From: Pempheris klunzingeri
Taxonomy: Eukaryota > Chordata > Actinopteri > Acropomatiformes > Pempheridae
Assembly: GCF_042242105.1 (NCBI RefSeq)
Contig: NC_092030.1
Location: forward strand, 1 to 64,000
Length of the DNA: 64,000 bases
Reading direction: 5' to 3'
In this document: piece after piece, positions 1 through 18,000 of the stretch
Layout: every line of letters begins with the position of its first letter
How positions within the stretch are numbered: the stretch's first letter is position 1
Notes under the pieces: generated by a model
Databases searched by the model: none
What the model was told of the DNA's origin: nothing
The model's input: the letters and a program-made list of their open reading frames with translations, nothing else
Translations under genes and position numbers: made by a program

Positions 1-3000
1 CTAACCCTAACCCTAACCCTAACCCTAACCCTAACCCTAACCTAACCCTAACCCTAACCCTAACCCTAACCCTAACCCTAACCCTAACCCTAACCCTAAC
101 CTAACCCTAACCCTAACCCTAACCCTAACCCTAACCCCTAACCCTAACCCTAACCCTAACCCTAACCCTAACCCTAACCCTAACCCTAACCCTAACCCTA
201 ACCCTAACCCTAACCCTAACCCTAACCCTAACCCTAACCCTAACCCTAACCCTAACCCTAACCCTAACCCTAACCTAACCCTAACCCTAACCCTAACCCT
301 AACCCTAACCCTAACCCTAACCCTAACCCTAACCCTAACCCTAACCCTAACCCTAACCCTAACCCTAACCCTAACCCTAACCCTAACCCTAACCCTAACC
401 CTAACCCTAACCCTAACCCTAACCCTAACCCTAACCCTAACCCTAACCCTAACCCTAACCCTAACCCTAACCCTAACCCTAACCCTAACCCTAACCCTAA
501 CCCTAACCCTAACCCTAACCCTAACCCTAACCCTAACCCTAACCCTAACCCTAACCCTAACCCTAACCCTAACCCTAACCCTAACCCTAACCCTAACCCT
601 AACCCTAACCCTAACCCTAACCCTAACCCTAACCCTAACCCTAACCCTAACCCTAACCCTAACCCTAACCCTAACCCTAACCCTAACCCTAACCCTAACC
701 CTAACCCTAACCCTAACCCTAACCCTAACCCTAACCCTAACCCTAACCCTAACCCTAACCCTAACCCTAACCCTAACCCTAACCCTAACCCTAACCCTAA
801 CCCTAACCCTAACCCTAACCCTAACCCTAACCCTAACCCTAACCCTAACCCTAACCCTAACCCTAACCCTAACCCTAACCCTAACCCTAACCCTAACCCT
901 AACCCTAACCCTAACCCTAACCCTAACCCTAACCCTAACCCTAACCCTAACCCTAACCCTAACCCTAACCCTAACCCTAACCCTAACCCTAACCCTAACC
1001 CTAACCCTAACCCTAACCCTAACCCTAACCCTAACCCTAACCCTAACCCTAACCCTAACCCTAACCCTAACCCTAACCCTAACCCTAACCCTAACCCTAA
1101 CCCTAACCCTAACCCTAACCCTAACCCTAACCCTAACCCTAACCCTAACCCTAACCCTAACCCTAACCCTAACCCTAACCCTAACCCTAACCCTAACCCT
1201 AACCCTAACCCTAACCCTAACCCTAACCCTAACCCTAACCCTAACCCTAACCCTAACCCTAACCCTAACCCTAACCCTAACCCTAACCCTAACCCTAACC
1301 CTAACCCTAACCCTAACCCTAACCCTAACCCTAACCCTAACCCTAACCCTAACCCTAACCCTAACCCTAACCCTAACCCTAACCCTAACCCTAACCCTAA
1401 CCCTAACCCTAACCCTAACCCTAACCCTAACCCTAACCCTAACCCTAACCCTAACCCTAACCCTAACCCTAACCCTAACCCTAACCCTAACCCTAACCCT
1501 AACCCTAACCCTAACCCTAACCCTAACCCTAACCCTAACCCTAACCCTAACCCTAACCCTAACCCTAACCCTAACCCTAACCCTAACCCTAACCCTAACC
1601 CTAACCCTAACCCTAACCCTAACCCTAACCCTAACCCTAACCCTAACCCTAACCCTAACCCTAACCCTAACCCTAACCCTAACCCTAACCCTAACCCTAA
1701 CCCTAACCCTAACCCTAACCCTAACCCTAACCCTAACCCTAACCCTAACCCTAACCCTAACCCTAACCCTAACCCTAACCCTAACCCTAACCCTAACCCT
1801 AACCCTAACCCTAACCCTAACCCTAACCCTAACCCTAACCCTAACCCTAACCCTAACCCTAACCCTAACCCTAACCCTAACCCTAACCCTAACCCTAACC
1901 CTAACCCTAACCCTAACCCTAACCCTAACCCTAACCCTAACCCTAACCCTAACCCTAACCCTAACCCTAACCCTAACCCTAACCCTAACCCTAACCCTAA
2001 CCCTAACCCTAACCCTAACCCTAACCCTAACCCTAACCCTAACCCTAACCCTAACCCTAACCCTAACCCTAACCCTAACCCTAACCCTAACCCTAACCCT
2101 AACCCTAACCCTAACCCTAACCCTAACCCTAACCCTAACCCTAACCCTAACCCTAACCCTAACCCTAACCCTAACCCTAACCCTAACCCTAACCCTAACC
2201 CTAACCCTAACCCTAACCCTAACCCTAACCCTAACCCTAACCCTAACCCTAACCCTAACCCTAACCCTAACCCTAACCCTAACCCTAACCCTAACCCTAA
2301 CCCTAACCCTAACCCTAACCCTAACCCTAACCCTAACCCTAACCCTAACCCTAACCCTAACCCTAACCCTAACCCTAACCCTAACCCTAACCCTAACCCT
2401 AACCCTAACCCTAACCCTAACCCTAACCCTAACCCTAACCCTAACCCTAACCCTAACCCTAACCCTAACCCTAACCCTAACCCTAACCCTAACCCTAACC
2501 CTAACCCTAACCCTAACCCTAACCCTAACCCTAACCCTAACCCTAACCCTAACCCTAACCCTAACCCTAACCCTAACCCTAACCCTAACCCTAACCCTAA
2601 CCCTAACCCTAACCCTAACCCTAACCCTAACCCTAACCCTAACCCTAACCCTAACCCTAACCCTAACCCTAACCCTAACCCTAACCCTAACCCTAACCCT
2701 AACCCTAACCCTAACCCTAACCCTAACCCTAACCCTAACCCTAACCCTAACCCTAACCCTAACCCTAACCCTAACCCTAACCCTAACCCTAACCCTAACC
2801 CTAACCCTAACCCTAACCCTAACCCTAACCCTAACCCTAACCCTAACCCTAACCCTAACCCTAACCCTAACCCTAACCCTAACCCTAACCCTAACCCTAA
2901 CCCTAACCCTAACCCTAACCCTAACCCTAACCCTAACCCTAACCCTAACCCTAACCCTAACCCTAACCCTAACCCTAACCCTAACCCTAACCCTAACCCT

Positions 3001-4596
3001 AACCCTAACCCTAACCCTAACCCTAACCCTAACCCTAACCCTAACCCTAACCCTAACCCTAACCCTAACCCTAACCCTAACCCTAACCCTAACCCTAACC
3101 CTAACCCTAACCCTAACCCTAACCCTAACCCTAACCCTAACCCTAACCCTAACCCTAACCCTAACCCTAACCCTAACCCTAACCCTAACCCTAACCCTAA
3201 CCCTAACCCTAACCCTAACCCTAACCCTAACCCTAACCCTAACCCTAACCCTAACCCTAACCCTAACCCTAACCCTAACCCTAACCCTAACCCTAACCCT
3301 AACCCTAACCCTAACCCTAACCCTAACCCTAACCCTAACCCTAACCCTAACCCTAACCCTAACCCTAACCCTAACCCTAACCCTAACCCTAACCCTAACC
3401 CTAACCCTAACCCTAACCCTAACCCTAACCCTAACCCTAACCCTAACCCTAACCCTAACCCTAACCCTAACCCTAACCCTAACCCTAACCCTAACCCTAA
3501 CCCTAACCCTAACCCTAACCCTAACCCTAACCCTAACCCTAACCCTAACCCTAACCCTAACCCTAACCCTAACCCTAACCCTAACCCTAACCCTAACCCT
3601 AACCCTAACCCTAACCCTAACCCTAACCCTAACCCTAACCCTAACCCTAACCCTAACCCTAACCCTAACCCTAACCCTAACCCTAACCCTAACCCTAACC
3701 CTAACCCTAACCCTAACCCTAACCCTAACCCTAACCCTAACCCTAACCCTAACCCTAACCCTAACCCTAACCCTAACCCTAACCCTAACCCTAACCCTAA
3801 CCCTAACCCTAACCCTAACCCTAACCCTAACCCTAACCCTAACCCTAACCCTAACCCTAACCCTAACCCTAACCCTAACCCTAACCCTAACCCTAACCCT
3901 AACCCTAACCCTAACCCTAACCCTAACCCTAACCCTAACCCTAACCCTAACCCTAACCCTAACCCTAACCCTAACCCTAACCCTAACCCTAACCCTAACC
4001 CTAACCCTAACCCTAACCCTAACCCTAACCCTAACCCTAACCCTAACCCTAACCCTAACCCTAACCCTAACCCTAACCCTAACCCTAACCCTAACCCTAA
4101 CCCTAACCCTAACCCTAACCCTAACCCTAACCCTAACCCTAACCCTAACCCTAACCCTAACCCTAACCCTAACCCTAACCCTAACCCTAACCCTAACCCT
4201 AACCCTAACCCTAACCCTAACCCTAACCCTAACCCTAACCCTAACCCTAACCCTAACCCTAACCCTAACCCTAACCCTAACCCTAACCCTAACCCTAACC
4301 CTAACCCTAACCCTAACCCTAACCCTAACCCTAACCCTAACCCTAACCCTAACCCTAACCCTAACCCTAACCCTAACCCTAACCCTAACCCTAACCCTAA
4401 CCCTAACCCTAACCCTAACCCTAACCCTAACCCTAACCCTAACCCTAACCCTAACCCTAACCCTAACCCTAACCCTAACCCTAACCCTAACCCTAACCCT
4501 AACCCTAACCCTAACCCTAACCCTAACCCTAACCCTAACCCTAACCCTAACCCTAACCCTAACCCTAACCCTAACCCTAACCCTAACCCTAACCCT
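1..4596 (+). repeat. Terminal telomere array (CCCTAA)n
   Basis: The + strand is a tandem array of CCCTAA, the C-rich strand of the vertebrate TTAGGG telomere, running from the first base to the first non-telomeric base at 4597. From about 290 to 4596 every 60-base block is ten perfect units. In the first 290 bases there are units with a lost C (near 40-46, 100 and 270) and one with an extra C (near 136). A very long open frame of alternating residues on the opposite strand is an artefact of the repeat. The orientation makes position 1 the distal side. Confidence 0.99.
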
Positions 4597-5583
4597 GCAC
4601 CAGCCCTGTGGCCAGTGCATACCCAGCACCCCTTCGGGGGCGCTGGGAAGACCCAGAACCTAACCCTAATCCTAATCCTGAGTCTAACCCTAATCCTAAT
4701 CCTGAGTCTAACCCTAATCCTAATCCTGAGTCTAACCCTAGGTCTAAGCTCTCCCTCTACAAAACCCTTACCTTAACCACTCTCCTTTAGTGCAGCCCTA
4801 ACCCTAGCAAAAAACACCCTACAATCCACTCCAAAACACCCCCCAGACAACCCTACAATCAACTCCAAAACACCCTCCAAAACACCCCCCAATCCACTCC
4901 AAATGGCCTCAAATGCACCCCTAGGCACTTCCTGGAAACACCTAGGGACAAAAAACACTTGGTCATATTTTCACTCACTATAGTCAATGCAACTTTTCAA
5001 CATAACTCGCCCTAGGAATGTCCCACCAACACCATTCAACCACCCCTAGGCTCCCCTTAAGCCAAGCTACCCGACCCTAGGATTTCAGCTCCACAGCGCC
5101 AACTACTGGTCGACCACTTTTCCAAAAAACACTCTCCAGGACACCCTCCAATCAACTCCAAATGGCCTGAAACGCGCTCCTAAACACTTTCTGGGGGAAC
5201 TTTTTTCAAAAAAACACTTTGAAAAATTTCACCTCACTCAACTCTATGGGGAATTTTCAAACGCCTATAACTTTAAAACCACACCTCCTAGCGCTTTGCA
5301 AACCACTTCCGCCTGCCATAATTCGGCCCTTCTGAACACGCCAGGCTTGGTCCCGTCTCTCTACGACCTTCCCTTCCGGAGATACAACAAAAACAAACTT
5401 TTTTTCGCTACTTACGCCCACTTCCCGACGTCACAGCCACTAGGGGGACCCACCAAACGAAAGACAGCCTATGGAAATGGGGGGGTACCACCCACTTTCA
5501 GCTCTCTACCTCCAACGGTTCGGGAGTTATCACCCAAAAACAGGACCATCAAATTTGATGATCGTGGTTATTACCCCCCTTAC
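4597..5583 (+). repeat. Subtelomeric unit U1, full length, type-1 3' end
   Basis: This is the most distal full-length copy of the main subtelomeric unit. It opens with a GC-rich head containing CCCC-TTCG-GGGG, then several AATCCTGAGTCTAACCCT variant telomeric repeats (about 4660-4740). A body of short A-rich motifs (CTCCAAAACACCC and similar, 4800-5180) and a well conserved 3' half (about 5170-5583) follow. The type-1 end has the 14-base palindrome CATCAAATTTGATG, then TTATTACCCCCCTTAC and the telomeric array. Short open frames exist only from TTG and stay open only because the copies are nearly identical. I see no coding support. Confidence 0.9.
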
Positions 5584-5638
5584 CTAACCCTAACCCTAAC
5601 CCTAACCCTAACCCTAACCCTAACCCTAACCCTAACCC
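5584..5638 (+). repeat. Interstitial telomeric array
   Basis: About nine CCCTAA units between U1 and the next fragment, starting in the phase CTAACC directly after TTAC. Confidence 0.95.
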
Positions 5639-5705
5639 GGTTCGGGAGTTATCACCCAAAAACAGGACCATCAAATTTGATGATCGTGGTTATTACCCCC
5701 CTTAC
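5639..5705 (+). repeat. Subtelomeric unit fragment, 3' 67 bases only
   Basis: A repeat of the last 67 bases of U1, beginning at GGTTCGGGAGTTATC. It is joined directly to CCCTAACCC on its left and to CTAACC on its right. It is the shortest 5'-truncated copy with the complete type-1 3' end. Confidence 0.9.
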
Positions 5706-5749
5706 CTAACCCTAACCCTAACCCTAACCCTAACCCTAACCCTAACCTA
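5706..5749 (+). repeat. Interstitial telomeric array
   Basis: About seven CCCTAA units, one of them short, grading into the variant repeats that open U2. Confidence 0.9.
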
Positions 5750-6656
5750 ACCCTAATCCTGAGTCTAACCCTAATCCTGAGTCTAACCCTAGGTCTAAGC
5801 TCTCCCTCTACAAAACCCTTACCTTAACCACTCTCCTTTAGTGCAGCCCTAACCCTAGCAAAAAACACCCTCCGGAACACCCTACAATCCACTCCAAAAC
5901 ACCCCCCAGACAACCCTCCAATCAACTACAAAACACCCTACAAAACACCCCCCAGATAACCCTCCAATCCACTCCAAATGGCCTATAATGCACCCCTAGG
6001 CACTTCCTGGAAACACCTAGGGACAAAAAACACTTGGGCAAATTTTCAACCACTATAGTCAATGCAACTTTTCCTCATAACTCGCCCTAGGAATGTCCCA
6101 CCCACACCATTCAACCACCCCTAGGCTCCCCTTAAGCCAAGCTACCCCACCCTAGGATTCCAGCTCCACAGCGCCAACTACTGGACGGCCACTTTTCCAA
6201 ATAACACTCTCCAGGACACCCTCCAATCAACTCCAAATGGCCTGAAACGCGCTCCTAAACACTTTCTGGGGGAACTTTTTTCAAAAAAACACTTAGGAAA
6301 ATTTCACCTCACTCAACTCTATGGGGAATTTTCAAACGCCTATAACTTTAAAACCACACCTCCTAGCGCTTTGCAAACCACTTCCGCCTGCCATAATTCG
6401 GCCCTTCTGAACACGCCAGGCTTGGTCCCGTCTCTCTACGACCTTCCCTTCCGGAGATACAACAAAAACAAACTTTTTTTCGCTACTTACGCCCACTTCC
6501 CGACGTCACAGCCACTAGGGGGACCCACCAAACGAAAGACAGCCTATGGAAATGGGGGGGTAGGAAAAACCTCAACTCTCTAGCTCACAAGCTTCTTCAG
6601 TTACCGGCCAGTCTGAGGATCGCCGTTTCGGCGATCGTGGTTATTACCCCCCTTAC
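5750..6656 (+). repeat. Subtelomeric unit U2, type-2 3' end
   Basis: This copy starts within the variant TCCTGAGTCTAACCC repeats, lacks the GC-rich head, and carries the whole body. After the shared GGAAATGGGGGGGTA the sequence differs from U1. It reads GGAAAAACCTC..., then an 8-base-pair hairpin (GATCGCCG-TTT-CGGCGATC, 6618-6636), then the same GTGGTTATTACCCCCCTTAC tail. The two end types share the last 20 bases but not the 60-80 before them. Confidence 0.9.
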
Positions 6657-6691
6657 CTAACCCTAACCCTAACCCTAACCCTAACCCTAAC
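6657..6691 (+). repeat. Interstitial telomeric array
   Basis: About six CCCTAA units between U2 and U3, starting CTAACC after TTAC. Confidence 0.95.
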
Positions 6692-7702
6692 CCTTCTAAC
6701 CCTGAGTCTAACCCTGAGTCTAACCCTGAGTCTAACCCTGAGTCTAACCCTAACCCTGAGTCTAACCCTGAGTCTAACCCTGAGTCTAACCCTGAGTCTA
6801 ACCCTAATCCTAATCCTGAGTCTAACCCTAATCCTGAGTCTAACCCTAGGTCTAAGCTCTCCCTCTACAAAACCCTTACCTTAACCACACTCCTTTAGTG
6901 CAGCCCTAACCCTAGCGAAAACACCCCCCAGACAACCCTCCAATCCACTCCAAAACACCCCCCAGACAACCCTCCAATCAACTCCAAAACACCCCCCAGA
7001 TAACCCTCCAAACCACTCCAAATGGCCTCAAATGCACCCCTAGGCACTTCCTGGAAACACCTAGGGACAAAAAACACGTGGGCAAATTTTCACTCACTAT
7101 AGTCAATGCAACTTTTCAACATAACTCGCCCTAGGAATGTCCCACCAACACCATTCAACCACCCCTAGGCTCCCCTTAAGCCAAGCTACCACACCCTAGG
7201 ATTCCAGCTCCACAGCGCCAACTACTGGACGGCCACTTTTCCAAAAAACACTCTCCAGGACACCCTCCAATCAACTCCAAATGGCCTGAAACGCGCTCCT
7301 AAACACTTTCTGGGGGAACTTTTTGCAAAAAAACACTTTGAAAAATTTCACCTCACTCAACTCTATGGGGAATTTTCAAACGCCTATAACTTTAAAACCA
7401 CACCTCCTAGCGCTTTGCAAACCACTTCCGCCTGCCATAATTCGGCCCTTCTGAACACGCCAGGCTTGGTCCCGTCTCTCTACGACCTTCCCTTCCGGAG
7501 ATACAACAAAAACAAACTTTTTTTCGCTACTTACGCCCACTTCCCGACCTCACAGCCACTAGGGGGACCCACCAAACGAAAGACAGCCTATGGAAATGGG
7601 GGGGTACCACCCACTTTCAGCTCTCTACCTCCAACGGTTCGGGAGTTATCACCCAAAAACAGGACCATCAAATTTGATGATCGTGGTTATTACCCCCCTT
7701 AC
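6692..7702 (+). repeat. Subtelomeric unit U3, type-1 3' end
   Basis: A near full-length copy with an expanded head of about ten CCCTGAGTCTAA / AATCCTGAGTCTAA variant repeats (6692-6850), then the standard body and type-1 end. Relative to U1 it has small differences, for example CCGACCTCACAG where most copies read CCGACGTCACAG (near 7545). Confidence 0.9.
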
Positions 7703-7740
7703 CTAACCCTAACCCTAACCCTAACCCTAACCCTAACCCT
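7703..7740 (+). repeat. Interstitial telomeric array
   Basis: About six CCCTAA units between U3 and U4. Confidence 0.95.
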
Positions 7741-8206
7741 ACTTTTACAAAAAACACTCTCCAGGACACCCTCCAATCAACTCCAAATGGCCTGAAACGC
7801 GCTCTTAAACACTTTCTGGGGGAACTTTTTTCAAAAAAACACTTTGAAAAATTTCACCTCACTCAACTCTATGGGGAATTTTCAAACGCCTATAACTTTA
7901 AAACCACACCTCCTAGCGCTTTGCAAACCACTTCCGCCTGCCATAATTCGGCCCTTCTGAACACGCCAGCCTTGGTCCCGTCTCTCTACGACCTTCCCTT
8001 CCGGAGATACAACAAAAACAAACTTTTTTTCCCTACTTACGCCCACTTCCCGACGTCACAGCCACTAGGGGGACCCACCAAACGAAAGACAGCCTATGGA
8101 AATGGGGGGGTAGGAAAAACCTCAACTCTCTAGCTCACAAGCTTCTTCAGTTACCGGCCAGTCTGAGGATCGCCGTTTCGGCGATCGTGGTTATTACCCC
8201 CCTTAC
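7741..8206 (+). repeat. Subtelomeric unit U4, 5'-truncated, type-2 3' end
   Basis: Begins abruptly after CCCTAACCCT at ACTTTTACAAAAAACACTC, which corresponds to the middle of the full unit. It runs to the type-2 hairpin end (GATCGCCG-TTT-CGGCGATC near 8168-8186). Confidence 0.9.
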
Positions 8207-8318
8207 CTAACCCTAACCCTAACCCTAACCCTAACCCTAACTCTAACCCTAACCCTAACCCTAACCCTCTAACCCTAACCCTAACCCTAACCCTAACCCT
8301 AACCCTAACCCTAACCCT
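8207..8318 (+). repeat. Interstitial telomeric array
   Basis: About 18 CCCTAA units with one CTCTAA variant and one partial unit. Confidence 0.95.
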
Positions 8319-8726
8319 GCTCCTAAACACTTTCTGGGGGAACTTTTTTCAAAAAAACACTTTGAAAAATTTCACCTCACTCAACTCTATGGGGAATTTT
8401 CAAACGCCTATAACTTTAAAACCACACCTCCTAGCGCTTTGCAAACCACTTCCGCCTGCCATAATTCGGCCCTTCTGAACACGCCAGGCTTGGTCCCGTC
8501 TCTCTACGACCTTCCCTTCCGGAGATACAACAAAAACAAACTTTTTTTCGCTACTTACGCCCACTTCCCGACGTCACAGCCACTAGGGGGACCCACCAAA
8601 CGAAAGACAGCCTATGGAAATGGGGGGGTACCACCCACTTTCAGCTCTCTACCTCCAACGGTTCGGGAGTTATCACCCAAAAACAGGACCATCAAATTTG
8701 ATGATCGTGGTTATTACCCCCCTTAC
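8319..8726 (+). repeat. Subtelomeric unit U5, 5'-truncated, type-1 3' end
   Basis: Starts at GCTCCTAAACACTTTC immediately after CCCTAACCCT and runs to the type-1 end. The same truncation point occurs in U6, which suggests the two copies arose by local duplication. Confidence 0.9.
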
Positions 8727-8787
8727 CTAACCTAACCCTAACCCTAACCCTAACCCTAACCCTAACCCTAACCCTAACCCTAACCCT
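8727..8787 (+). repeat. Interstitial telomeric array
   Basis: About ten CCCTAA units; the first is CTAACC followed by another short unit. Confidence 0.95.
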
Positions 8788-9195
8788 GCTCCTAAACACT
8801 TTCTGGGGGAACTTTTTTCAAAAAAACACTTTGAAAAATTTCACCTCACTCAACTCTATGGGGAATTTTCAAACGCCTATAACTTTAAAACCACACCTCC
8901 TAGCGCTTTGCAAACCACTTCCGCCTGCCATAATTCGGCCCTTCTGAACACGCCAGGCTTGGTCCCGTCTCTCTACGACCTTCCCTTCCGGAGATACAAC
9001 AAAAACAAACTTTTTTTCGCTACTTACGCCCACTTCCCGACGTCACAGCCACTAGGGGGACCCACCAAACGAAAGACAGCCTATGGAAATGGGGGGGTAC
9101 CACCCACTTTCAGCTCTCTACCTCCAACGGTTCGGGAGTTATCACCCAAAAACAGGACCATCAAATTTGATGATCGTGGTTATTACCCCCCTTAC
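8788..9195 (+). repeat. Subtelomeric unit U6, 5'-truncated, type-1 3' end
   Basis: Same start, length (408 bases) and end as U5. By eye the sequence appears identical to U5. Confidence 0.9.
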
Positions 9196-9239
9196 CTAAC
9201 CCTAACCCTAACCCTAACCCTAACCCTAACCCTAACCCT
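9196..9239 (+). repeat. Interstitial telomeric array
   Basis: About seven CCCTAA units between U6 and U7. Confidence 0.95.
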
Positions 9240-10226
9240 GCACCAGCCCTGTGGCCAGTGCATACCCAGCACCCCTTCGGGGGCGCTGGGAAGACCCAGA
9301 ACCTAACCCTAATCCTAATCCTGAGTCTAACCCTAATCCTAATCCTGAGTCTAACCCTAATCCTAATCCTGAGTCTAACCCTAGGTCTAAGCTCTCCCTC
9401 TACAAAACCCTTACCTTAACCACTCTCCTTTAGTGCAGCCCTAACCCTAGCAAAAAACACCCTACAATCCACTCCAAAACACCCCCCAGACAACCCTACA
9501 ATCAACTCCAAAACACCCTCCAAAACACCCCCCAATCCACTCCAAATGGCCTCAAATGCACCCCTAGGCACTTCCTGGAAACACCTAGGGACAAAAAACA
9601 CTTGGTCATATTTTCACTCACTATAGTCAATGCAACTTTTCAACATAACTCGCCCTAGGAATGTCCCACCAACACCATTCAACCACCCCTAGGCTCCCCT
9701 TAAGCCAAGCTACCCGACCCTAGGATTTCAGCTCCACAGCGCCAACTACTGGTCGACCACTTTTCCAAAAAACACTCTCCAGGACACCCTCCAATCAACT
9801 CCAAATGGCCTGAAACGCGCTCCTAAACACTTTCTGGGGGAACTTTTTTCAAAAAAACACTTTGAAAAATTTCACCTCACTCAACTCTATGGGGAATTTT
9901 CAAACGCCTATAACTTTAAAACCACACCTCCTAGCGCTTTGCAAACCACTTCCGCCTGCCATAATTCGGCCCTTCTGAACACGCCAGGCTTGGTCCCGTC
10001 TCTCTACGACCTTCCCTTCCGGAGATACAACAAAAACAAACTTTTTTTCGCTACTTACGCCCACTTCCCGACGTCACAGCCACTAGGGGGACCCACCAAA
10101 CGAAAGACAGCCTATGGAAATGGGGGGGTACCACCCACTTTCAGCTCTCTACCTCCAACGGTTCGGGAGTTATCACCCAAAAACAGGACCATCAAATTTG
10201 ATGATCGTGGTTATTACCCCCCTTAC
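9240..10226 (+). repeat. Subtelomeric unit U7, full length, type-1 3' end
   Basis: An apparently identical copy of U1 at a constant offset of 4643 bases, including the GC-rich head and the variant telomeric repeats. It is the most proximal copy of the main unit. Confidence 0.9.
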
Positions 10227-10278
10227 CTAACCCTAACCCTAACCCTAACCCTAACCCTAACCCTAACCCTAACCCTAA
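10227..10278 (+). repeat. Interstitial telomeric array
   Basis: About eight CCCTAA units between U7 and the AT-rich second family. Confidence 0.95.
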
Positions 10279-10648
10279 TTAAAAATTAAAATTTGGAAAT
10301 TTAATTTGAATTGAATTAGACTAATTGGAATTTGATTTGATTTGATTTGAAATTTGTTTTGATTTGATTGATTGGTTTAATTATTTATTAAATAAATAGA
10401 TTAAACAATTAATTAAATAGATAAATTAGTTAATTAATAGATATTAAAATTTGATTTCATTTGATAAAAAACAATTTAAATTCAATTAATTAATAACAAA
10501 GCCAAATTCATGAGTGGATTCGAGGAGGGGTGGACGGCAGTCAGGTACGGCGGAAGACGCCGCCGCCGTCCACCCACCAAGTGGCAGAACTGGGGGATGG
10601 ACCGTGCACCTCCTGCTCCTTATTGGGAGCAGGGTCAGGACACTGTAC
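10279..10648 (+). mobile_element. Second-family element R1: AT-rich leader plus Arg-rich ORF start
   Basis: About 230 bases of very AT-rich sequence lead to an ATG at 10510 in the frame M-S-G-F-E-E-G-W-T-A-V-R-Y-G-G-R-R-R-R-R, continuing through W-Q-N-W and D-R-A-P-P until the telomeric repeat at 10649. A stem CCTGCTCC/GGAGCAGG (10612-10633) lies 15 bases before the junction CTGTAC|CTAACC. Leader and ORF start are repeated in R3. The Arg-rich N-terminus resembles that of fish non-LTR or Penelope-type retroelement proteins by impression only. No reverse transcriptase is present. Confidence 0.6.
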
Positions 10649-10753
10649 CTAACCCTAACCCTAACCCTTAACCATTCCCACCTTATCTTTCCTAACCCTA
10701 ACCATTCCTAACCCTAACCTTAACCTTTTCCATTTCCTTCCTAACCCTAACCC
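10649..10753 (+). repeat. Degenerate interstitial telomeric array
   Basis: CCCTAA units mixed with CCATTCC and CCTTTTCC blocks. This is the most degenerate telomeric stretch in the subtelomere. Confidence 0.85.
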
Positions 10754-11634
10754 TTAATTAATTAATTAAAAATAAATAATTTAAAATTTAAATTGGTTAA
10801 ATACATAAATTTGAATAAAATTGGAGAATTGAAAAATTACTTAGGTTTAAATTCATGATTTTAAATTAATTTGGAGAATTAAAATTGATTAAAATTAGTT
10901 TCATAAATTAGCTGTAAAAACAATTAATACGGAATTCAAATTACTTACATCATTAAAAAACAATTTAAAAATTCATAAATATTAAACAAGTTAAAATGTA
11001 ATAATAAATAGTTAAAATACAAAAAGATTAAAAGTTTTAATTCATTTTAGTAATTTAATATCTTAAAAGTAGAGAATGGGTTTTAAATTTAAGTTATTTT
11101 CTAAAATAAACCAAGTTGTAAAAAAGGCGCAATTTAGGCAGGTATAAATAAAACTCATAGTATACTGCCTTCATTCTGAAGCTTACTTTCGAAGAGACAA
11201 CATCTCTGGAGCAAAGCTGACGGACCATATAGCAGCCAGTGCTTTTTTTTCAATTTGTGCCCTGCCTGAAGAAGACTTGTAATAAGTTGAAACGTCGCGC
11301 ATTGGGCACATTATTGAGTTTATTTAGATAGTTTTGATTTCATAAAATTTATTTTGTTTTATTTCATTTGATAATTCATTTTAATAAATATTAACATAAT
11401 TCATACATTTAATTCATAACTTTTTAATTGAACTTTATTAAAAAATAACAAAAACTTAATTGAAAAGAACAACAAAATTAAAATCATGGCCGATCGGGGC
11501 CGCTGGACGCGGGTGCGCTACGGGAAGCGACCTGCCCGGCAACAAAGGTCCAGGGACCGGGGAGGGAGACCAGCTTGGAGGAAGGACCGAGCACCTCCTG
11601 TCTCCTTCGGGAGACAGGCTCATTCGCCTTCCCC
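10754..11634 (+). mobile_element. Second-family element R2: AT-rich leader, ribozyme-like motif, Arg-rich ORF start
   Basis: About 360 bases of AT-rich DNA are followed by a more complex block (11120-11330) with a hammerhead-like core, then another AT-rich leader. An ATG at 11486 opens M-A-D-R-G-R-W-T-R-V-R-Y-G-K-R-P, continuing through D-R-A-P-P. A 9-base-pair hairpin with a TTCG loop (CCTGTCTCC-TTCG-GGAGACAGG, 11597-11618) precedes the telomeric repeat. The ORF aligns with R1 and R3 at W-T-x-V-R-Y-G and D-R-A-P-P but is clearly diverged. The order ribozyme, leader, ORF fits a Penelope-like element; this is inference. Confidence 0.55.
11257..11309 (+). ncRNA. Hammerhead-ribozyme-like motif
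   Basis: CTGAAGA (11266-11272, matching CUGANGA) is followed by a short stem ACTT/AAGT (11275-11278 with 11284-11287), GAAA (11289-11292) and C-GTC (11293-11296). Closing stem: TGC (11263-11265) pairs with GCG (11297-11299), and GTGCCC (11257-11262) pairs with GGGCAC (11304-11309), leaving a four-base bulge. This is the type-I hammerhead plan with a minimal stem III, as known in Penelope-like elements. There is an extra A after the first core block, so activity is uncertain. Confidence 0.45.
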
Positions 11635-11646
11635 TAACCCTAACCC
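11635..11646 (+). repeat. Very short interstitial telomeric array
   Basis: Two CCCTAA units between R2 and the next fragment. Confidence 0.85.
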
Positions 11647-11818
11647 TTACGCCCACTTCCCGACGTCACAGCCACTAGGGGGTGCCACCCATCGATTCAG
11701 CATGCCATGGGTACGGAGGGTAGGCACCAACTCCAAAACTCTAGGACCCTCCTATCCGGACTTATCGGCTCATGAAGTTCATGGGTAGGGGTACCCATAT
11801 CAGTTTTCATCATATAAC
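11647..11818 (+). repeat. Subtelomeric fragment F1 with type-3 3' end
   Basis: Begins with 40 bases of the main unit (TTACGCCCACTTCCCGACG to CACTAGGGGG). It then switches to a third end sequence that starts TGCCACCCATCG and carries CATGAA-G-TTCATG and GGGTA-GGGG-TACCC hairpins. It ends ATCATATAAC before CTAACC. The switch point shows that the third family shares its upstream part with the main unit. Confidence 0.8.
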
Positions 11819-11843
11819 CTAACCCTAACCCTAACCCTAACCC
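11819..11843 (+). repeat. Interstitial telomeric array
   Basis: Four CCCTAA units. Confidence 0.9.
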
Positions 11844-11907
11844 TTCTTCAGTTACCGGCCAGTCTGAGGATCGCCGTTTCGGCGATCGTGGTTATTACCC
11901 CCCTTAC
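11844..11907 (+). repeat. Subtelomeric fragment F2, type-2 3' end only
   Basis: The last 64 bases of a type-2 unit, from CTTCTTCAGTTACCGG to CCCCCCTTAC, joined on its left to CCCTAACC. Confidence 0.9.
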
Positions 11908-11921
11908 CTAACCCTAACCCT
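11908..11921 (+). repeat. Short interstitial telomeric array
   Basis: Two CCCTAA units. The left end of the next fragment overlaps the array by the microhomology CCTAGGGGG / CACTAGGGGG. Confidence 0.85.
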
Positions 11922-12063
11922 AGGGGGTGCCACCCATCGATTCAGCATGCCATGGGTACGGGGTGTAGGCACAAACTCCAAAACTCTAGGACCCTCCTAT
12001 CCGGACTTATCGGCTCATGAAGTTCATGGGTAGGGGTACCCATATCAGTTTTCATCATATAAC
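11922..12063 (+). repeat. Subtelomeric fragment F3, type-3 3' end
   Basis: A second copy of the type-3 end, differing from F1 by a few bases (for example GGGGTGTAGGCACAAAC against GGAGGGTAGGCACCAAC), with the same ATCATATAAC terminus. Confidence 0.85.
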
Positions 12064-12091
12064 CTAACCCTAACCCTAACCCTAACCCTAA
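12064..12091 (+). repeat. Interstitial telomeric array
   Basis: Four to five CCCTAA units. Confidence 0.9.
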
Positions 12092-12280
12092 ACAAACTTT
12101 TTTTCGCTACTTACGCCCACTTCCCGACGTCACAGCCACTAGGGGGACCCACCAAACGAAAGACAGCCTATGGAAATGGGGGGGTAGGAAAAACCTCAAC
12201 TCTCTAGCTCACAAGCTTCTTCAGTTACCGGCCAGTCTGAGGATCGCCGTTTCGGCGATCGTGGTTATTACCCCCCTTAC
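12092..12280 (+). repeat. Subtelomeric fragment F4, type-2 3' end
   Basis: A 5'-truncated copy starting at ACAAACTTTTTTTCGC and reaching the type-2 hairpin end. Its 3' junction has one extra C (TTAC|CCTAACCC), the main exception to the usual junction. Confidence 0.9.
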
Positions 12281-12300
12281 CCTAACCCTAACCCTAACCC
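12281..12300 (+). repeat. Interstitial telomeric array
   Basis: Three CCCTAA units. Confidence 0.9.
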
Positions 12301-12415
12301 TATGGAAATGGGGGGGGTACCACCCACTTTCAGCTCTCTACCTCCAACGGTTCGGGAGTTATCACCCAAAAACAGGACCATCAAATTTGATGATCGTGGT
12401 TATTACCCCCCTTAC
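12301..12415 (+). repeat. Subtelomeric fragment F5, type-1 3' end
   Basis: A 5'-truncated copy starting at TATGGAAATGGGG. The unit itself reads CCTATGGAAATG, so the CCTA is shared with the telomeric repeat (microhomology at the 5' join). Confidence 0.9.
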
Positions 12416-12437
12416 CTAACCCTAACCCTAACCCTAA
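12416..12437 (+). repeat. Interstitial telomeric array
   Basis: Three CCCTAA units ending in AA, then the AT-rich R3. Confidence 0.9.
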
Positions 12438-12690
12438 ATAGATTAATCAATTAATTAAATAAATAAATTAGTTAATTAATAGATATTAAAATTGATTTCA
12501 TTTGATAACAAACAATCTAAATTCAATTAATTAATAACAAAGCTAAAACTCATGAGCAGATTCGAGGAGGGGTGGACGACGGTTAGATATGGCGGAAGAC
12601 GCCGCCGTCGTCCACCCACAAGATGGCAAAACTGGGGGACGGACCGTGCACCTCCTGCTCCTTATTGGGAGCAGGTTCAGGATAGAGTAC
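12438..12690 (+). mobile_element. Second-family element R3: AT-rich leader plus Arg-rich ORF start
   Basis: A diverged copy of R1. The leader begins at ATAGATTAATCAATTAATT. An ATG at 12552 opens M-S-R-F-E-E-G-W-T-T-V-R-Y-G-G-R-R-R-R-R. From ATG to junction both copies are 139 bases. Most codon differences I checked against R1 are silent (GTC/GTT, AGG/AGA, TAC/TAT in V-R-Y). The CCTGCTCC/GGAGCAGG hairpin is retained and the 3' junction is GAGTAC|CTAACC. Confidence 0.6.
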
Positions 12691-12715
12691 CTAACCTAAC
12701 CCTAACCCTAACCCT
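12691..12715 (+). repeat. Interstitial telomeric array
   Basis: Four CCCTAA units, one short. Confidence 0.9.
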
Positions 12716-13101
12716 GCACCTGTGAAGAATAGAGAAAGAGAAAAGGATTTAGAAACAAAACAATTCCACTTACTTGGAAATAAAACCTGAAATAGAGAGA
12801 ATTAGTTACAAATGATTTTACTTACCTCGAGACCAAACCTGCAAAGGAGAAAAAGAGAAAGAAAAACTCAGGATAGACAATTCCATTTAATTGGAAAGAC
12901 AAACATAGAAAGAAAAATTGAAAACAAATCTCAGCTAAAGAGTAATAACTCACAAGGAAGGGAGTATTGAGATGATATACTTAACTGGAAATGGTGAAGT
13001 ATAACGACATGCGTAGGCCCGTGCCTTGCCTTTGGCTCCCCACTTTCAACTGCCGAGTCGTTGGACAAGGTGGGGGGAGTCATCGAGATAGCTTCTAACA
13101 T
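12716..13101. other. Unidentified subtelomeric segment
   Basis: About 390 bases, purine-rich at first (GAGAAAGAGAAAAG and similar, repeated with changes around 12730, 12850 and 12910), then an unrelated block with CCTTGCCTTTGGCTCCC and GTGGGGGGAGTC. It begins GCACCTGTGAAG after a telomeric array and ends in another. I recognise no gene in it. Confidence 0.5.
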
Positions 13102-13120
13102 CCTAACCCTAACCCTAACC
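13102..13120 (+). repeat. Short interstitial telomeric array
   Basis: Three CCCTAA units. Confidence 0.85.
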
Positions 13121-13180
13121 GGTGTGATGGACCGTGCACCTCTGCTCACCCTCTAGGGTGAGTGGCTCAGTCCCCTCTAC
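13121..13180 (+). mobile_element. Second-family element R4, 3' end only
   Basis: Starts GGTGTGATGGACCGTGCACC, matching the D-R-A-P-P codons of R1 and R3. It carries a third hairpin, CTCACCC-TCTA-GGGTGAG (13145-13162), at the same relative place. It ends CTCTAC before CTAACCC. The stem sequence differs from R1, R2 and R3 while pairing is kept. Confidence 0.6.
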
Positions 13181-13187
13181 CTAACCC

Positions 13188-13209
13188 ATATCAGTTTTCA
13201 TCCTATGAC
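13188..13209 (+). repeat. Type-3 3' tail fragment
   Basis: The 22-base tail of the type-3 end (ATATCAGTTTTCATCCTATG and two more bases), joined to CTAACCC on both sides. Confidence 0.75.
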
Positions 13210-13292
13210 CTAACCCTAACCCTAACCCTAACCCTCATGGTTATTACCCCCTTAGGGTTAGGGTTACCCCCCTTAGGGTTAACCCTAACCCT
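13210..13292. repeat. Inverted telomeric junction at the subtelomere edge
   Basis: Four CCCTAA units (13210-13235) and a unit tail GGTTATTACCCCC are followed by two TTAGGG units in the opposite orientation (13252-13265). Then come a run of C and the palindrome TTAGGGTTAACCCTAA (13273-13288). This is the only head-to-head telomeric arrangement in the subtelomere and marks its proximal border. Confidence 0.85.
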
Positions 13293-13380
13293 GGTTCTCA
13301 GGTTCCTGTGGATCCTGGTTCTCCTGCTGTGGTTCTCAGGTTCCTGTGGATCCTGGTCCTGGTTCTCCTGCTGTGGATCG
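13293..13380. repeat. Two-copy minisatellite
   Basis: GGTTCTCAGGTTCCTGTGG followed by ATCCTGGTTCTCCTGCTGT is repeated twice, the second copy with a six-base insertion (CCTGGT). It directly abuts the telomeric border. Confidence 0.8.
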
Positions 13381-13489
13381 TCAGCCACAGACACTTTTTA
13401 CTGATATCAGTCCTGTTATTATTATTCACATATTAACTATTGTCATGTCAATGTCAATGTTACCACATTGATCAGTATCAGTCACACTC

Positions 13490-14246: not shown

Positions 14247-15018
14247 TTTTTGAATGTACATAATAATGGGTTTATGCTCCTGATGTGTGATTATGTTCCA
14301 GTAGATAATCACAGGGTGTCTGTCTGTCTGTCCTGTGGGATTAGCCTCATGTAACGACACCCTTGGATATTTAAACTCTTCAGAGGGTGTCAGGGCTCCG
14401 TCTCTCTAAACATGTTCACTAGACTGTAAATACCTCCAATAATAGCTCGGAGGGGAAAAGAGGCTCACAGGATGCCTGCAGTACTTGTGTTTGTCGGTGG
14501 TGGAGTTTTCTTCCTGCAGGACGTCTCCGTTCTGTGTGGAAACCTCTTAATTATCCTGTTTACCCCTTTTACGGACAGAGTGCCGTCATGAAAAGAAGCA
14601 CTTACACCAGCACACACACACGTACAGACAGACAGATACATGCACACACAGTCACATAAAATGGATTTATATTTTTCTGCAGTCACTGAGCAGCAGATTA
14701 TGGTTTCGGTGAAGCTGGACTTTCTTCAGTCACTGGCCAGACTTGAGAGGACAATCAGCCAAGTTTAGAACATCCACGGCCCACATCGTTTCCTGACTAA
14801 GGCGTGACGTCAGTCCGGAGGGAAAAGGGAGGCCCTTTGTGATCCCCTCAGTATCTGCTGAGGATGTGAGAGGCTGTGGCTGCTTCTGCACCGCCCCCTT
14901 TATTTCCCCACAATCAACAGGAAGCCTGGAGGCCAGAGAGAGCAGCCAATCTTCAGGAGAGGAAAGACGAAGGTCCAGCTGTACACTCACAACAAAGGAC
15001 AACAATCAAGGCAGAGGA

Positions 15019-18000
15019 ATGAACAAGAACCAGAAAGAAGTCAAGAAAATCCAGTCAGTTTATCTGCAAAACCTGGAAAAACTGAATCAGGGGATAAAGG
15101 CAGACAAGAAAAGTTGGAAACCAAAGGAAGGAGACTTTACTGCAGCGATGGAAAAGCTGCGACAGCCCCCCATAGCTGGGAAGGTAACCAAGAGCTCAGC
15201 GCATAGAATCAGCAGAGACCTCACCTGCTCCATCTGCCTGGATCTGTTCAAGCAGCCCGTGTCTCTGCCCTGCGATCACACCTTCTGCCAGGGGTGCATT
15301 GAGGGCTACTGGACCGGCCCCCGGGGCCCTGGGCAGGGAGGCTCCGGCTCCTGCCCTCAGTGCAGGAAGGTGTACCCCGGACAAAGCTACAGGCCCAACC
15401 GCATTGTTGCCAACATAGTGGAGAGTTACTGTCAGGGTCTGGAGGAGAGTGGTGCAGCAGCCCGCCTGGCAGATGCTGGGCTGACAGAGAGGGCTCCTGC
15501 TCCTGTCCCACGCTGCAGTCGACATAGAGAGGAGCTGAAGCTCTACTGCGAGGAGGACCAGGAGCTGGTGTGTCTGGTGTGTGGTCTATCCCAGGAGCAC
15601 AGAAACCACACCATGGTGTGTGTCCAGGAGGCTGAACAGAAGTACAGGGTGAGTTCAGCTTCATGCCAAAGTTTGTCGGTACTGAAGAGCTCAGCAGAAT
15701 CTCCACATCGTACAATTTATCTGAAGCCTCAATTAACTCCGTTGAAGTTCTGCGCCTCAGGAGGTTAGGTGTGTGTGACTTATTGCGCAACACAGAGTCT
15801 GTGGTCAGCAACAACACCAGCGCTACTTCACCATGTTATTCCTGTACCTGTGTTTTGTTATAAAGAATAGCAGATGTGACTTTGTGTTTGTCATGAGCTG
15901 CAGCTCAGTGTGCAGTCGTGTCTGTCTCTGTCTGTCAGGCGTCTCTCAACAGCTCCATGGATTCCCTCAAAGCTGAGCTCAACACAGCGCTGCAGTGTGA
16001 CCGGGAGGCCGAGGAAGAGGTTAAAAAGCTCAAGGTGAGAGGAAATGCCACCACAACAACCACATATGGACACACTGCAATCACTGCTGCATTTCTGTAC
16101 CACTATGGAAGTCCACTGTGACCCCTTTAATGTCTTAAAACCAGATTTGACCACACAGAAATGAGTCTGCTGATGTCTCTTGTTTCTGATTCATTAGTCC
16201 CTTTTTCATTTGTGCTGTGCTTCCACTGTAATAAAACGTGTAATGACAATTTCCATCATCCTCCACCTACGTAGGAGCACACTGCTGACCTGAAGCAGCG
16301 CATTGAGGCCCAGTTCAGTGACCTGCATCAGTTCCTGTACCAGGAGGAGAAGCTGCTGCAGGTGAAGCTGAAGACGGAGGAGCGCAGAGAGCTGATCCGA
16401 CTAGACGAGCACAAGGCCCTGCTGTGTGTGGAGATCTCCCGTCTGCAGAGAGCCGTCCATGAGATAGAGGACAAGCTGAGGGAGCAGGACGCCTTCAGTC
16501 TGCTGCGGGTGGGTTCAGCTCACATCAACTTCATACAGCTGGAAGTTATTAAGAGCATGATGAGTCAGCTCTGGGGACGATTACGGCCAGAAGAGCTGAG
16601 CTTTGGATTTCAGACATAAGAACTATTCATATGAGACTGAAACTTGAGGTAAGGAGGTAAAGTTTGTGGTTAATTTATGTTTCTGTGCTGAAATGTTAAA
16701 CAGGATCCAGCATCAACTTTCAGCATTTTACTTCAGCAGGGTGTGACCACTTTGGCTTTCCTGTTGCACTTCTTGAGCATGTTAATCGTGTCGGTTTGAG
16801 TGAGTTTGAGGAGTTTGACGTACCGGTAAAAACATGCTTTTGCAACATTTTGCAGCTATTCTAAAGACAAAGGGCTTGGGCAGTGAGCGTAGACAGGATA
16901 TAGGCCAGTGATCTCACCCGCTGATCTTGAGGATAAGGAGTTTGGCTGAGGCTCAGGGCCACACTGAGGCCACGGCTGCGGGACTTTCCCCGGCCACAGC
17001 GAGAGCCCACAGGGTGGGATAGCGTGAGCTCAGACATTGATGTAATGTGGAAAAAGCTCTCTTTTCTCTCAGATCCAACAAAACTAATCAGCAGTCTGTC
17101 TCCCTTTTCCTGTGTCTCATTTCAGAGCATCAAAGTCCTACTCCAGAGGTGAGTGTGGGAACTACTTTTTCCTGGAAAGGGTTTGTTTTTATTCTCCCTC
17201 CACTGCTCTGACTTTGCTTTTGTTGGCAGGCCTTCGCTGAAGTTTGAGAAGCCCACATTTACACCGCCCAGTTTGTGTGAAGGTCGGTTTGCAGGGCCCC
17301 TGCAGTACAGAGTGTGGAAATCCATGAAAGGAAGCATTTATCCAGGTACTTTGAGTAACTCGTATGCCTTGGCAAGTGTAAATTACCAGCACTGAACTAC
17401 ACAGAACCAACACCGATCATCTGAGCATTACTGTGTATTACTAGAAAACCCTCAGTCTGATTTTCTATTTTTCTTGTTTTTAGTCCCGGCAGCCATTACC
17501 TTTAACTCGAGCACAGCCAACCCTTGGCTCAGCCTGACCTCCTCCCTCACCTGTGTTCGCTACCAGACCTTCAACCACACGGTGCAGGACAACCCCTACA
17601 GGTTCAACGCTGCCCTGTCACTGCTCGGCAGTCAAGGCTTCACCCACGGACGGCACTACTGGGAAATCGAAGTGTACAGCAGCACAGTGTGGACTGTGGG
17701 GGTGGCCCGTGAGTCTGTGCCCAGAAAGGGTGTCATCAAAGCCCTTCCAGCCAACGGCTTCTGGACTCTGACCCTCTCCTACGGGATACAGTACATGGCT
17801 GGCACTTCACCGCCAACCGTGCTGTCTCTGGAGGAGCCGCTGGCCAGGATCGGAGTGTACCTGGACTACAAGAGGGGTCTGGTGTCCTTTTACAATGCAG
17901 AGAGCATGACACACCTGTACACCTTCAGGGAGACCTTCAGCGAGACGCTGTACCCGTACTTCAACTTGGGCTTTCTGGATAAAGTGCATGAAAATGAGCC

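Follow-up and report, generated by a model that had tools for sequence, protein, structure and literature searches.

In Drosophila, HeT-A and TART attach serially and head to tail to chromosome ends, and an element that carries ORF1 and lacks a reverse transcriptase is kept intact. Telomerase and the reverse transcriptases (RTs) of Penelope-like elements (PLEs) have a common ancestry, and the PLEs attached to telomeres that have been described, from rotifers and further eukaryotes, are reported to be endonuclease-deficient (PMC3846280, PMC6431247). Our analysis of the left end of a contig of the fish Pempheris klunzingeri (NC_092030.1, termed C19; genome of 646 Mb) produced an array of PLEs and short non-coding elements that obey the same junction rule. 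The whole stretch analyzed, its first 64,000 nucleotides, is called the window. We consider it likely that reverse transcription of the PLEs starts at an internal site of the element, on a telomeric G-strand, that telomerase heals the distal ends, and that recombination multiplies the resulting blocks.

Two of the closest known systems are PLEs. Rotifer Terminons form head-to-tail arrays in which copies are 5'-truncated by telomeric repeats (PMC6431247, PMC3846280). A reverse-complement telomeric stretch lies just downstream of their terminal fold and is thought to pair with the G-overhang; they are called endonuclease-deficient, and some have separate GIY-YIG-like proteins (PMC6431247). With PAc of Anolis, reverse transcription by the purified protein begins internally, in a stem loop 111-118 nt into the open reading frame (ORF). 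The first 172 nt of this ORF are needed, genomic copies end at start sites, AT-rich DNA is cut, and the start is described as not homologous to the target (PMC11167929).

Other telomere-associated retrotransposons include MoTeR and FoTeR of fungi, Tx1-1_ACar of Anolis, and TRAS/SART of insects (PMC7367193, PMC12857005, PMC10088271). MoTeR arrays resemble the fish array also in their short interstitial tracts and 5' truncations (PMC7367193), and with Tx1-1_ACar a telomeric long interspersed nuclear element (LINE) is already known from a vertebrate, an anole (PMC10088271). All of these lack long terminal repeats (LTRs), whereas the fish elements have a Penelope-type RT, pseudo-LTRs (pLTRs), and a GIY-YIG domain. 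In open-licence literature, searched by titles and starts of abstracts, PLEs at the telomeres of fish are absent from the entries listed; bioRxiv and most subscription journals lie outside this scope.

A fixed proximal junction

The array follows a terminal tract of 4596 bp (CTAACC)n and reaches ~13.3 kb. It consists of segments with short telomere tracts between them. Segment types are named after their 3' tails: X, Y, Z, and W; C, with several subtypes; D; and E. A sequence-only reading of the window had claimed that segments meet the proximal telomere repeats at one fixed position, usually AC|CTAACC, and have ragged distal ends, and had interpreted them as retroelements attached serially to a telomere. 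The fixed junction recurs at all 16 positions that it listed. This observation is confirmed and extended here; the interpretation is partly supported, being right in kind and corrected in detail.

The pattern ACCTAACC occurs 22 times in positions 1-13400 of the window (3 of them within the terminal tract) versus 2 times, plus 1 reverse complement, in 13400-64000. Exceptions to the junction rule in the window are at 12278 (one additional C), 11632 (CC|CTAACC), and 13101 (CAT|CCTAACCC). In addition, the short segment 13236-13292 is joined to inverted-order G-strand repeats. The array is laid out as follows.

1-4596, + strand: terminal telomere tract (CTAACC)n
4597-5583, + strand: short hairpin tail (4597-4659), degenerate telomere-like stretch, and X copy with end ..CCCTTAC
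5639-5705, + strand: X copy, 5' truncated
5757-6656, + strand: Y copy, served as reference
6695-7702, + strand: X copy, served as reference
7742-8206, + strand: Y copy, 5' truncated
8319-8726, + strand: X copy, 5' truncated; same sequence as 8788-9195
8788-9195, + strand: X copy, duplicate of 8319-8726; TRF period 469
9240-10226, + strand: identical duplicate of 4597-5583
10279-10648, + strand: C1-type PLE 3' part, with ORF1 start (by eye MSGFEEGWTAVRYG..) and terminal hairpin
10669-11632, + strand: C2-type PLE pLTR, 5' truncated, with degenerate telomere-like lead, AT-rich part, hammerhead-like motif, and ORF1 codons 1-49
11257-11309, + strand: PLE-type hammerhead-like motif CTGAAGA..GAAACGTC, stem I GTGCCC/GGGCAC; absent from the Rfam model listing
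11486-11632, + strand: PLE ORF1, first 147 nt (MADRGRWTRVRYG..), cut at the junction
11597-11618, + strand: terminal hairpin CCTGTCTCC-TTCG-GGAGACAGG, 14 nt upstream of the heptamer
11633-11639, + strand: telomere heptamer CCTAACC, native in full-length ORF1; proposed reverse-transcription start
11648-11818, + strand: Z copy, 5' truncated
11845-11907, + strand: Y copy, 5' truncated
11923-12063, + strand: Z copy, 5' truncated
12092-12278, + strand: Y copy, 5' truncated
12303-12415, + strand: X copy, 5' truncated
12438-12690, + strand: C1-type PLE 3' part, 5' truncated
12716-13101, + strand: E-type copy, inferred 3' part of a third PLE (link via contig C7 and locus L041)
13121-13180, + strand: C13-type hairpin tail
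13187-13209, + strand: Z/W-type tail fragment
13236-13292, strand undefined: XY-tail fragments joined to G-strand and then C-strand repeats, in inverted order; inner array edge

Besides the window, the left ends of contigs C1-C10 were read (20 kb each); right ends are known from search matches alone. The left ends of contigs C1 and C6 have no array within the 20 kb read. After removal of flanks that were shorter than 40 nt or contained N, 146 proximal flanks were taken, and 145 mapped to a reference copy. The last reference base is met exactly in 95 of the 145, and 9 more are at most 9 bases off. By our reading, the rest comprise 15 that mark the 3' ends of C-, D-, or E-type copies contained within longer references, 24 that fall in the degenerate telomere-like region at the 5' side of X, Z, or D, and 2 without explanation.

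Genome-wide, the XY tail, the commonest, is found at 676 places, with CTAACC directly next in 658, and the ZW tail at 194 places, with CTAACC directly next in 175; reversed-pattern controls for both tails gave 0 matches. The 3' rule therefore holds across the genome, as against 51 distinct 5' starts on the ends read, and this tabulation of both junctions bears out the asymmetry described by the sequence-only reading. The telomere tracts that follow XY, ZW, D, or E tails have a median length of 51 bp (n = 102; the five longest are 215-754), and the longest tract per end is 2.5-4.6 kb on contigs C2, C3, C4, C5, C9, and C19. At the inner edge of the contig C4 array (L016:9421-9999), an endonuclease-like ORF (Exo_endo_phos_2, 7e-4, below cut-off) comes immediately after a C1-type tail and CCTAACCC.

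One orientation prevails. No G-strand runs are present in left-end loci L009-L028. The 3' end points towards the centromere in 100 of the 100 ZW places listed (of 194), two of which sit 0.7-0.8 Mb from the end, and in 87 of the 100 XY places listed (of 676), including 15 clustered 0.69 Mb from the right end of contig C3. The remaining 13 XY places belong to internal clusters on contigs C1 and C4. Matches to the D ORF number 57. By our count, 33 of them sit at chromosome ends, all with the 3' end towards the centromere; 21 belong to small contigs, and the other 3 have an internal or unknown position. Among 41 C2-type matches, 37 have this orientation (including four at a distance of 0.8 Mb from the contig C5 end) and 1 is on a small contig. 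High-coordinate matches on contigs C12, C13, C15, C16, C18, C20, C21, and C23 are assumed to lie at right ends.

The XY-tail clusters deep within chromosomes are at C1:23264537-23279174 and C4:24214256-24214367. That on contig C1, the longest of the contigs of known length, could reflect an old end-to-end fusion or a misjoin.

Penelope-like families

Similarity searches of the genome scored the best candidates alone. A query from window positions 11150-11632 has matches at 40 other places, mostly chromosome ends (40 of 49 first-look candidates scored). A complete C2-type relative, L040 (C22:84000-93500), carries an ORF1 of 622 aa and an ORF2 of 716 aa, flanked by pLTRs of 1119 bp each that are 99.6% identical and include 49 codons of ORF1. 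The predicted ORF2 protein matches the Pfam models GIY-YIG (4.8e-11, above cut-off) and RVT_1 (3e-5, under the curated cut-off), and ORF1 has no Pfam match. Relatives of ORF2 account for 2307 matches among 7999 scored proteins. The named relatives of the elements are fish, namely Nibea, Seriola, and Channa (the last among the best 120 ORF2 relatives listed); P0020, a relative filed under a bacterium, is in our reading fish DNA.

Two further families were found. L033, on contig C89, is a 7107-bp unit in tandem. Its ORF2 matches RVT_1 (1e-4, under cut-off) and GIY-YIG (2.5e-4, just under cut-off), and its ORF1 has a weak Lipase_GDSL_2 match (1e-4, under cut-off); Pfam gave no match for the D ORF or for L040 ORF1. 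L041, on contig C22, has a single ORF with both RT and GIY-YIG (RVT_1 7.3e-6, under cut-off; GIY-YIG 2.9e-7, above). Over its final 862 fetched bases, L041 shows 98.6% identity with the first half of the contig C7 copy that serves as the E reference. The E tail is thus probably the 3' end of the L041 family, whose end would lie beyond the fetched part.

In an alignment of five proteins, all three loci keep the motifs DID..YTNI, GTAMG, and LDDI, as well as the GIY-YIG residues Y, G, R, E, and N. We take these motifs and residues to have their catalytic roles in L040, L033, and L041. An ORF start within a pLTR, in a pseudo-LTR or tandem layout, is found for L040 and L033. The canonical PLE trait of a GIY-YIG domain in the RT ORF is present in all three full-length relatives, and the lack of an endonuclease domain, known from Athena and Terminons, is not seen. 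We accordingly file the three loci as PLEs, in part on the basis of sequence motifs, and not as endonuclease-deficient telomeric PLEs, although the array behaves like the arrays of the latter. The full-length relatives with an RT anticipated by the sequence-only reading therefore exist, and the likeness to endonuclease-less Penelope elements that it drew fails on the GIY-YIG domain.

Other assignments were considered. A solved-structure search with the RT ORF gave only weak matches (E of at least 0.0097), the best being to RTs of the retron and group II kinds. The reading frame MADRGRWTRVR at 11486 was ruled out as a LINE ORF1, given the Penelope-type RT downstream in the full-length locus. 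A Helitron 3' hairpin was rejected: no fitting end motif was seen by eye, and the relatives have a Penelope-type RT.

An internal site that spells the telomere repeat

The two pLTRs of L040 behave differently at the junction site. The left pLTR passes the site into ORF1 (..CCTTCC|CCTAACCGGCC.., CCTAACCGG), whereas the right pLTR ends at this point, with CCTAACCC and other sequence beyond it. With a query reaching 200 nt to either side of the site (40 of 55 candidates scored), 36 of 41 matches stop at position 207, just past CCTAACC, and 2 run through; the other three stop at 205, 206, and 211 (one each). Because 36 stop after the heptamer and 2 read through, we regard the C2-type boundary as an internal element site that spells the telomere repeat. 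The sequence-only reading had an RNA 3' end abutting the older telomere. The 3' side of the element does adjoin the older tract, but the read-through left pLTR refutes an RNA 3' end for the C2 type, the only family for which a full-length copy was retrieved; its boundary lies instead inside ORF1.

The site is 147 nt into ORF1 and 14 nt past a predicted hairpin at +112 to +133. The hairpin sequence differs among subtypes and its pairs are kept: 72 of 72 cells are paired (10 of 14 tail rows, 8 distinct). Two-sided changes are found in 14 cells versus 4.9 in shuffled alignments, and covariation is 0.702 versus 0.313; neither value is reached in 500 shuffles. Among 14 distinct tail rows, stem and CCTAA are 14 nt apart in 13; in the other, whose stem is one pair longer, the distance is 13 nt. 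Further upstream is a putative hammerhead-like motif, seen in the C2, D, and L033 types. With both stems, it occurs 9 times in 148.3 kb of arrays (5 in D copies), always on the + strand, versus 0 times in 20 first-order shuffles and 0 times in control regions, which contain 5 stemless cores.

The internal ORF1 boundary in the fish family fits the internal reverse-transcription start of the Anolis PLE (PMC11167929). The fish elements resemble PAc in having RT and GIY-YIG, pLTRs, a candidate hammerhead motif, and an apparent internal start. They differ in that the fish site carries CCTAACC, copies join telomere repeats, and a separate ORF1 precedes the RT ORF. With Athena and the Terminons they share a Penelope-type RT, a candidate hammerhead motif, a telomeric motif 3' of the terminal fold, and 5' truncation by telomeric repeats; the arrangement in which the 3' end is joined via the reverse-complement telomeric motif and the 5' end is cut by telomeric repeats is found in the fish arrays. 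A GDSL-like accessory ORF is a possible further likeness, given one weak Pfam match. Unlike those elements, the fish elements have a fish host and encode RT and GIY-YIG in one ORF, and their fold is a simple ORF1 hairpin with the hammerhead-like motif further upstream. As far as their sequences tell, the fish elements combine the internal start of the Anolis element with the telomere attachment of Terminons, while GIY-YIG is kept in the RT ORF.

An element without reverse transcriptase

The D element is a relative of L033, with 58% identity in ORF1. In D units on contigs C5, C8, and C10, ORF1 is the sole long ORF, and no RT match is found in these units among the matches listed. ORF1 is intact, with 793-837 aa (for example, L017:7079-9457), and 43 of 57 ORF1 matches are full length and stop-free. 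In 11 of 15 pairs of ORF1 copies, nonsynonymous divergence (dN) is 0.003-0.006 versus a synonymous divergence (dS) of 0.026-0.029; the other 4 pairs have 0-2 differing sites. Fisher tests of two pairs gave 9e-6 and 2e-5. This pattern of substitution indicates that D ORF1 is under purifying selection. The GDSN motif of relatives of D is GDTN in D.

An internal copy on contig C1 (C1:21990048-21996345) has an ORF1 96% identical to that of D and, 2-4 kb downstream of it on that strand, an RT match. D has therefore most likely lost its RT part. Being intact, RT-less, and ORF1-bearing, and joined serially head to tail with other elements, D recalls the HeT-A/TART system, and the HeT-A-like trait of a selected, ORF1-only, RT-less element is found in it. 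However, D does not belong to a non-LTR lineage that has replaced telomerase, because L033 has a Penelope-type RT and GIY-YIG and the arrays are capped by CTAACC/TTAGGG-type repeats. The fish elements are not non-LTR LINEs, telomerase-type repeats lie between copies, and D ORF1 is related to PLE ORF1 and not to HeT-A Gag.

Short non-coding copies

References for the X, Y, Z, and W types are 0.85-1.0 kb and have no known ORF. They share the junction rule, the orientation, the arrays, and the terminal hairpin with the PLE types. No Pfam match (one X stretch tried) and no hammerhead motif were found in them. Comparison of their bodies with the L033, L040, L041, D, E, and C4 references gave similarity limited to degenerate telomere-like repeats, and no full-length parent was found. 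The retroelement nature that the sequence-only reading gave to all copies thus stands for the PLE types, whereas the X/Y/Z/W types lack PLE homology. These copies may be riders that are served in trans by the PLE enzymes.

The X/Y/Z/W bodies are 92.5-96.3% identical (~705-719 columns), and their terminal domains of ~147 nt are 53-78% identical; near-identity of the bodies over 840 bp was dropped after measurement. Variation is concentrated in the hairpin-keeping 3' end that joins telomeres, as rapid change or module exchange would produce.

Ragged distal ends and duplicated blocks

The eight distal cut points listed by the sequence-only reading are real, although some shift by one or a few bases owing to telomere overlap. 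A strict test left out starts that lie within the first 160 reference bases or have unmatched first bases. In this test, none of 36 mapped 5' junctions lacks a nucleotide shared with the telomere, versus 46.7% expected by simulation. The proposed capping of ragged ends gains support from this result. Telomerase healing would leave no zero-overlap 5' junctions, and neither would joining by microhomology. The mean microhomology was dropped as proof of telomerase, because it depends on the null; the only robust feature is that junctions with zero overlap are missing, which joining by microhomology would also produce. Ragged 5' ends had also been read as a mark of reverse transcription. They are no proof that reverse transcription was incomplete, because terminal loss followed by telomere addition looks alike.

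Blocks are clearly multiplied by DNA recombination, as judged from identical and repeated segments. Positions 4597-5583 and 9240-10226 differ at 0 of 987 bases, and 8319-8726 and 8788-9195 at 0 of 408. Multi-segment higher-order repeats with preserved tract lengths are found on contigs C3 (4.3-19.3 kb), C4 (5.8-16.2 kb), C9 (13-19.4 kb), and C2 (5-18 kb). Therefore, counts of places are not counts of events. Some copies did not arise as separate attachment events, and part of the copy number is DNA duplication.

Proposed mechanism and alternatives

In the cycle proposed here, we infer the RNA, the priming strand, the enzyme activity, the telomerase step, and the order of events. Transcription of a tandem or pLTR-bearing element would run towards the centromere. 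The early-ORF1 hairpin would be bound by the RT of the element, and CCUAACC ~14 nt 3' of the hairpin would pair with GGTTAGG of the telomeric G-strand, either where an end has eroded or at a nick. The paired G-strand would then prime synthesis towards the RNA 5' end, and the variable 5' point would come from a stop in synthesis or from later trimming. Telomerase would extend the 5'-side end with new repeats, using at least one matching nucleotide. Such rounds would be repeated, and recombination between interstitial tracts would multiply blocks. The short tracts (n = 102, median 51 bp) favor priming at short ends rather than at nicks, with later shrinkage being possible.

Several observations weigh against this mechanism. 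The block duplications reveal DNA processes that are able to copy a junction, and the retained GIY-YIG domain means that end priming is not required. The X/Y/Z/W types, which are the majority of copies in the window, have no PLE homology. A site within a longer element is seen for the C2 type and not for D, E, or X/Y/Z/W. Two-sided changes affect 5 of 9 hairpin pairs, a value that 102 of 500 shuffles also attain, and the hairpin sequences are related to one another. The Rfam listing has no hammerhead motif, nor anything relevant. Mean microhomology at 5' junctions is raised under one null and not under another (P 0.09). Finally, 3 of 41 C2-type matches, on contig C5 ~45-50 kb from the right end, are reversed, so the single orientation claimed by the sequence-only reading is a prevailing one with few exceptions. 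The reversed copies (C5:29760917-29767879) may represent a local inversion.

A process involving DNA only is improbable. Here, the G-overhang of a short telomere would invade an interstitial tract, and break-induced replication would copy the next distal segment, abort, and be capped. The multi-segment units with preserved tract lengths on contigs C2, C3, C4, and C9 and the identical pairs in the window are expected from such a process, and break-induced replication has been inferred for MoTeR arrays (PMC7367193). It leaves unexplained, however, why matches of 80-100% identity nearly all break at one ORF1 base while two run through, why the spacing from a covarying hairpin is nearly constant, and why the elements are PLEs. 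Ordinary target-primed insertion, in which GIY-YIG would nick a long tract and the 5' end would be joined to distal repeats by microhomology, needs neither end priming nor telomerase. This is a more serious contender, though still unlikely. GIY-YIG is kept in all three full-length ORFs, the shared nucleotides at all strictly mapped 5' junctions fit, and a PLE 5' end joined by microhomology has been described from Adineta (PMC3846280). Yet random hits in tracts of 2.5-4.6 kb predict spacers longer than the median of 51 bp, barring later shrinkage.

The ragged 5' ends have a possible separate explanation, somewhat less doubtful than target-primed insertion, in erosion or breakage of the outermost elements followed by telomere addition instead of incomplete reverse transcription. 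Truncations of MoTeR are reported to arise by terminal loss and then telomere addition (PMC7367193), and the telomere-shared nucleotides at 5' junctions fit. Erosion leaves the fixed 3' site unexplained; the data do not separate it from stalled reverse transcription, and both may act. An assembly artefact, with repeats misplaced at contig ends, is very improbable: terminal arrays are hard to assemble and internal clusters are present (contig C1 at 23.26 Mb, contig C4 at 24.21 Mb), but the same rule appears at left and right ends, in mirrored orientation, at hundreds of places, and in diverged families.

Implications

The arrays place intact, endonuclease-bearing PLEs at the chromosome ends of a vertebrate, and the site at which copies end, near the position of the Anolis start, spells the telomere repeat. 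One genome thus links a PLE mechanism, telomere attachment, and an RT-less partner. A broader proposal, which we offer tentatively, is that endonuclease-bearing PLEs evolved, within their coding sequence, a telomere-complementary start and lengthen chromosome ends time after time, alongside a selected RT-less, ORF1-only partner and non-coding riders. If true, a second telomere system resembling HeT-A/TART would exist in a vertebrate that keeps telomerase-type repeats.

Next to the array, at ~15000-18000 of the window, a candidate TRIM-type gene with RING, B-box, and SPRY-like exons was recognized by eye; it starts less than 2 kb from the array.

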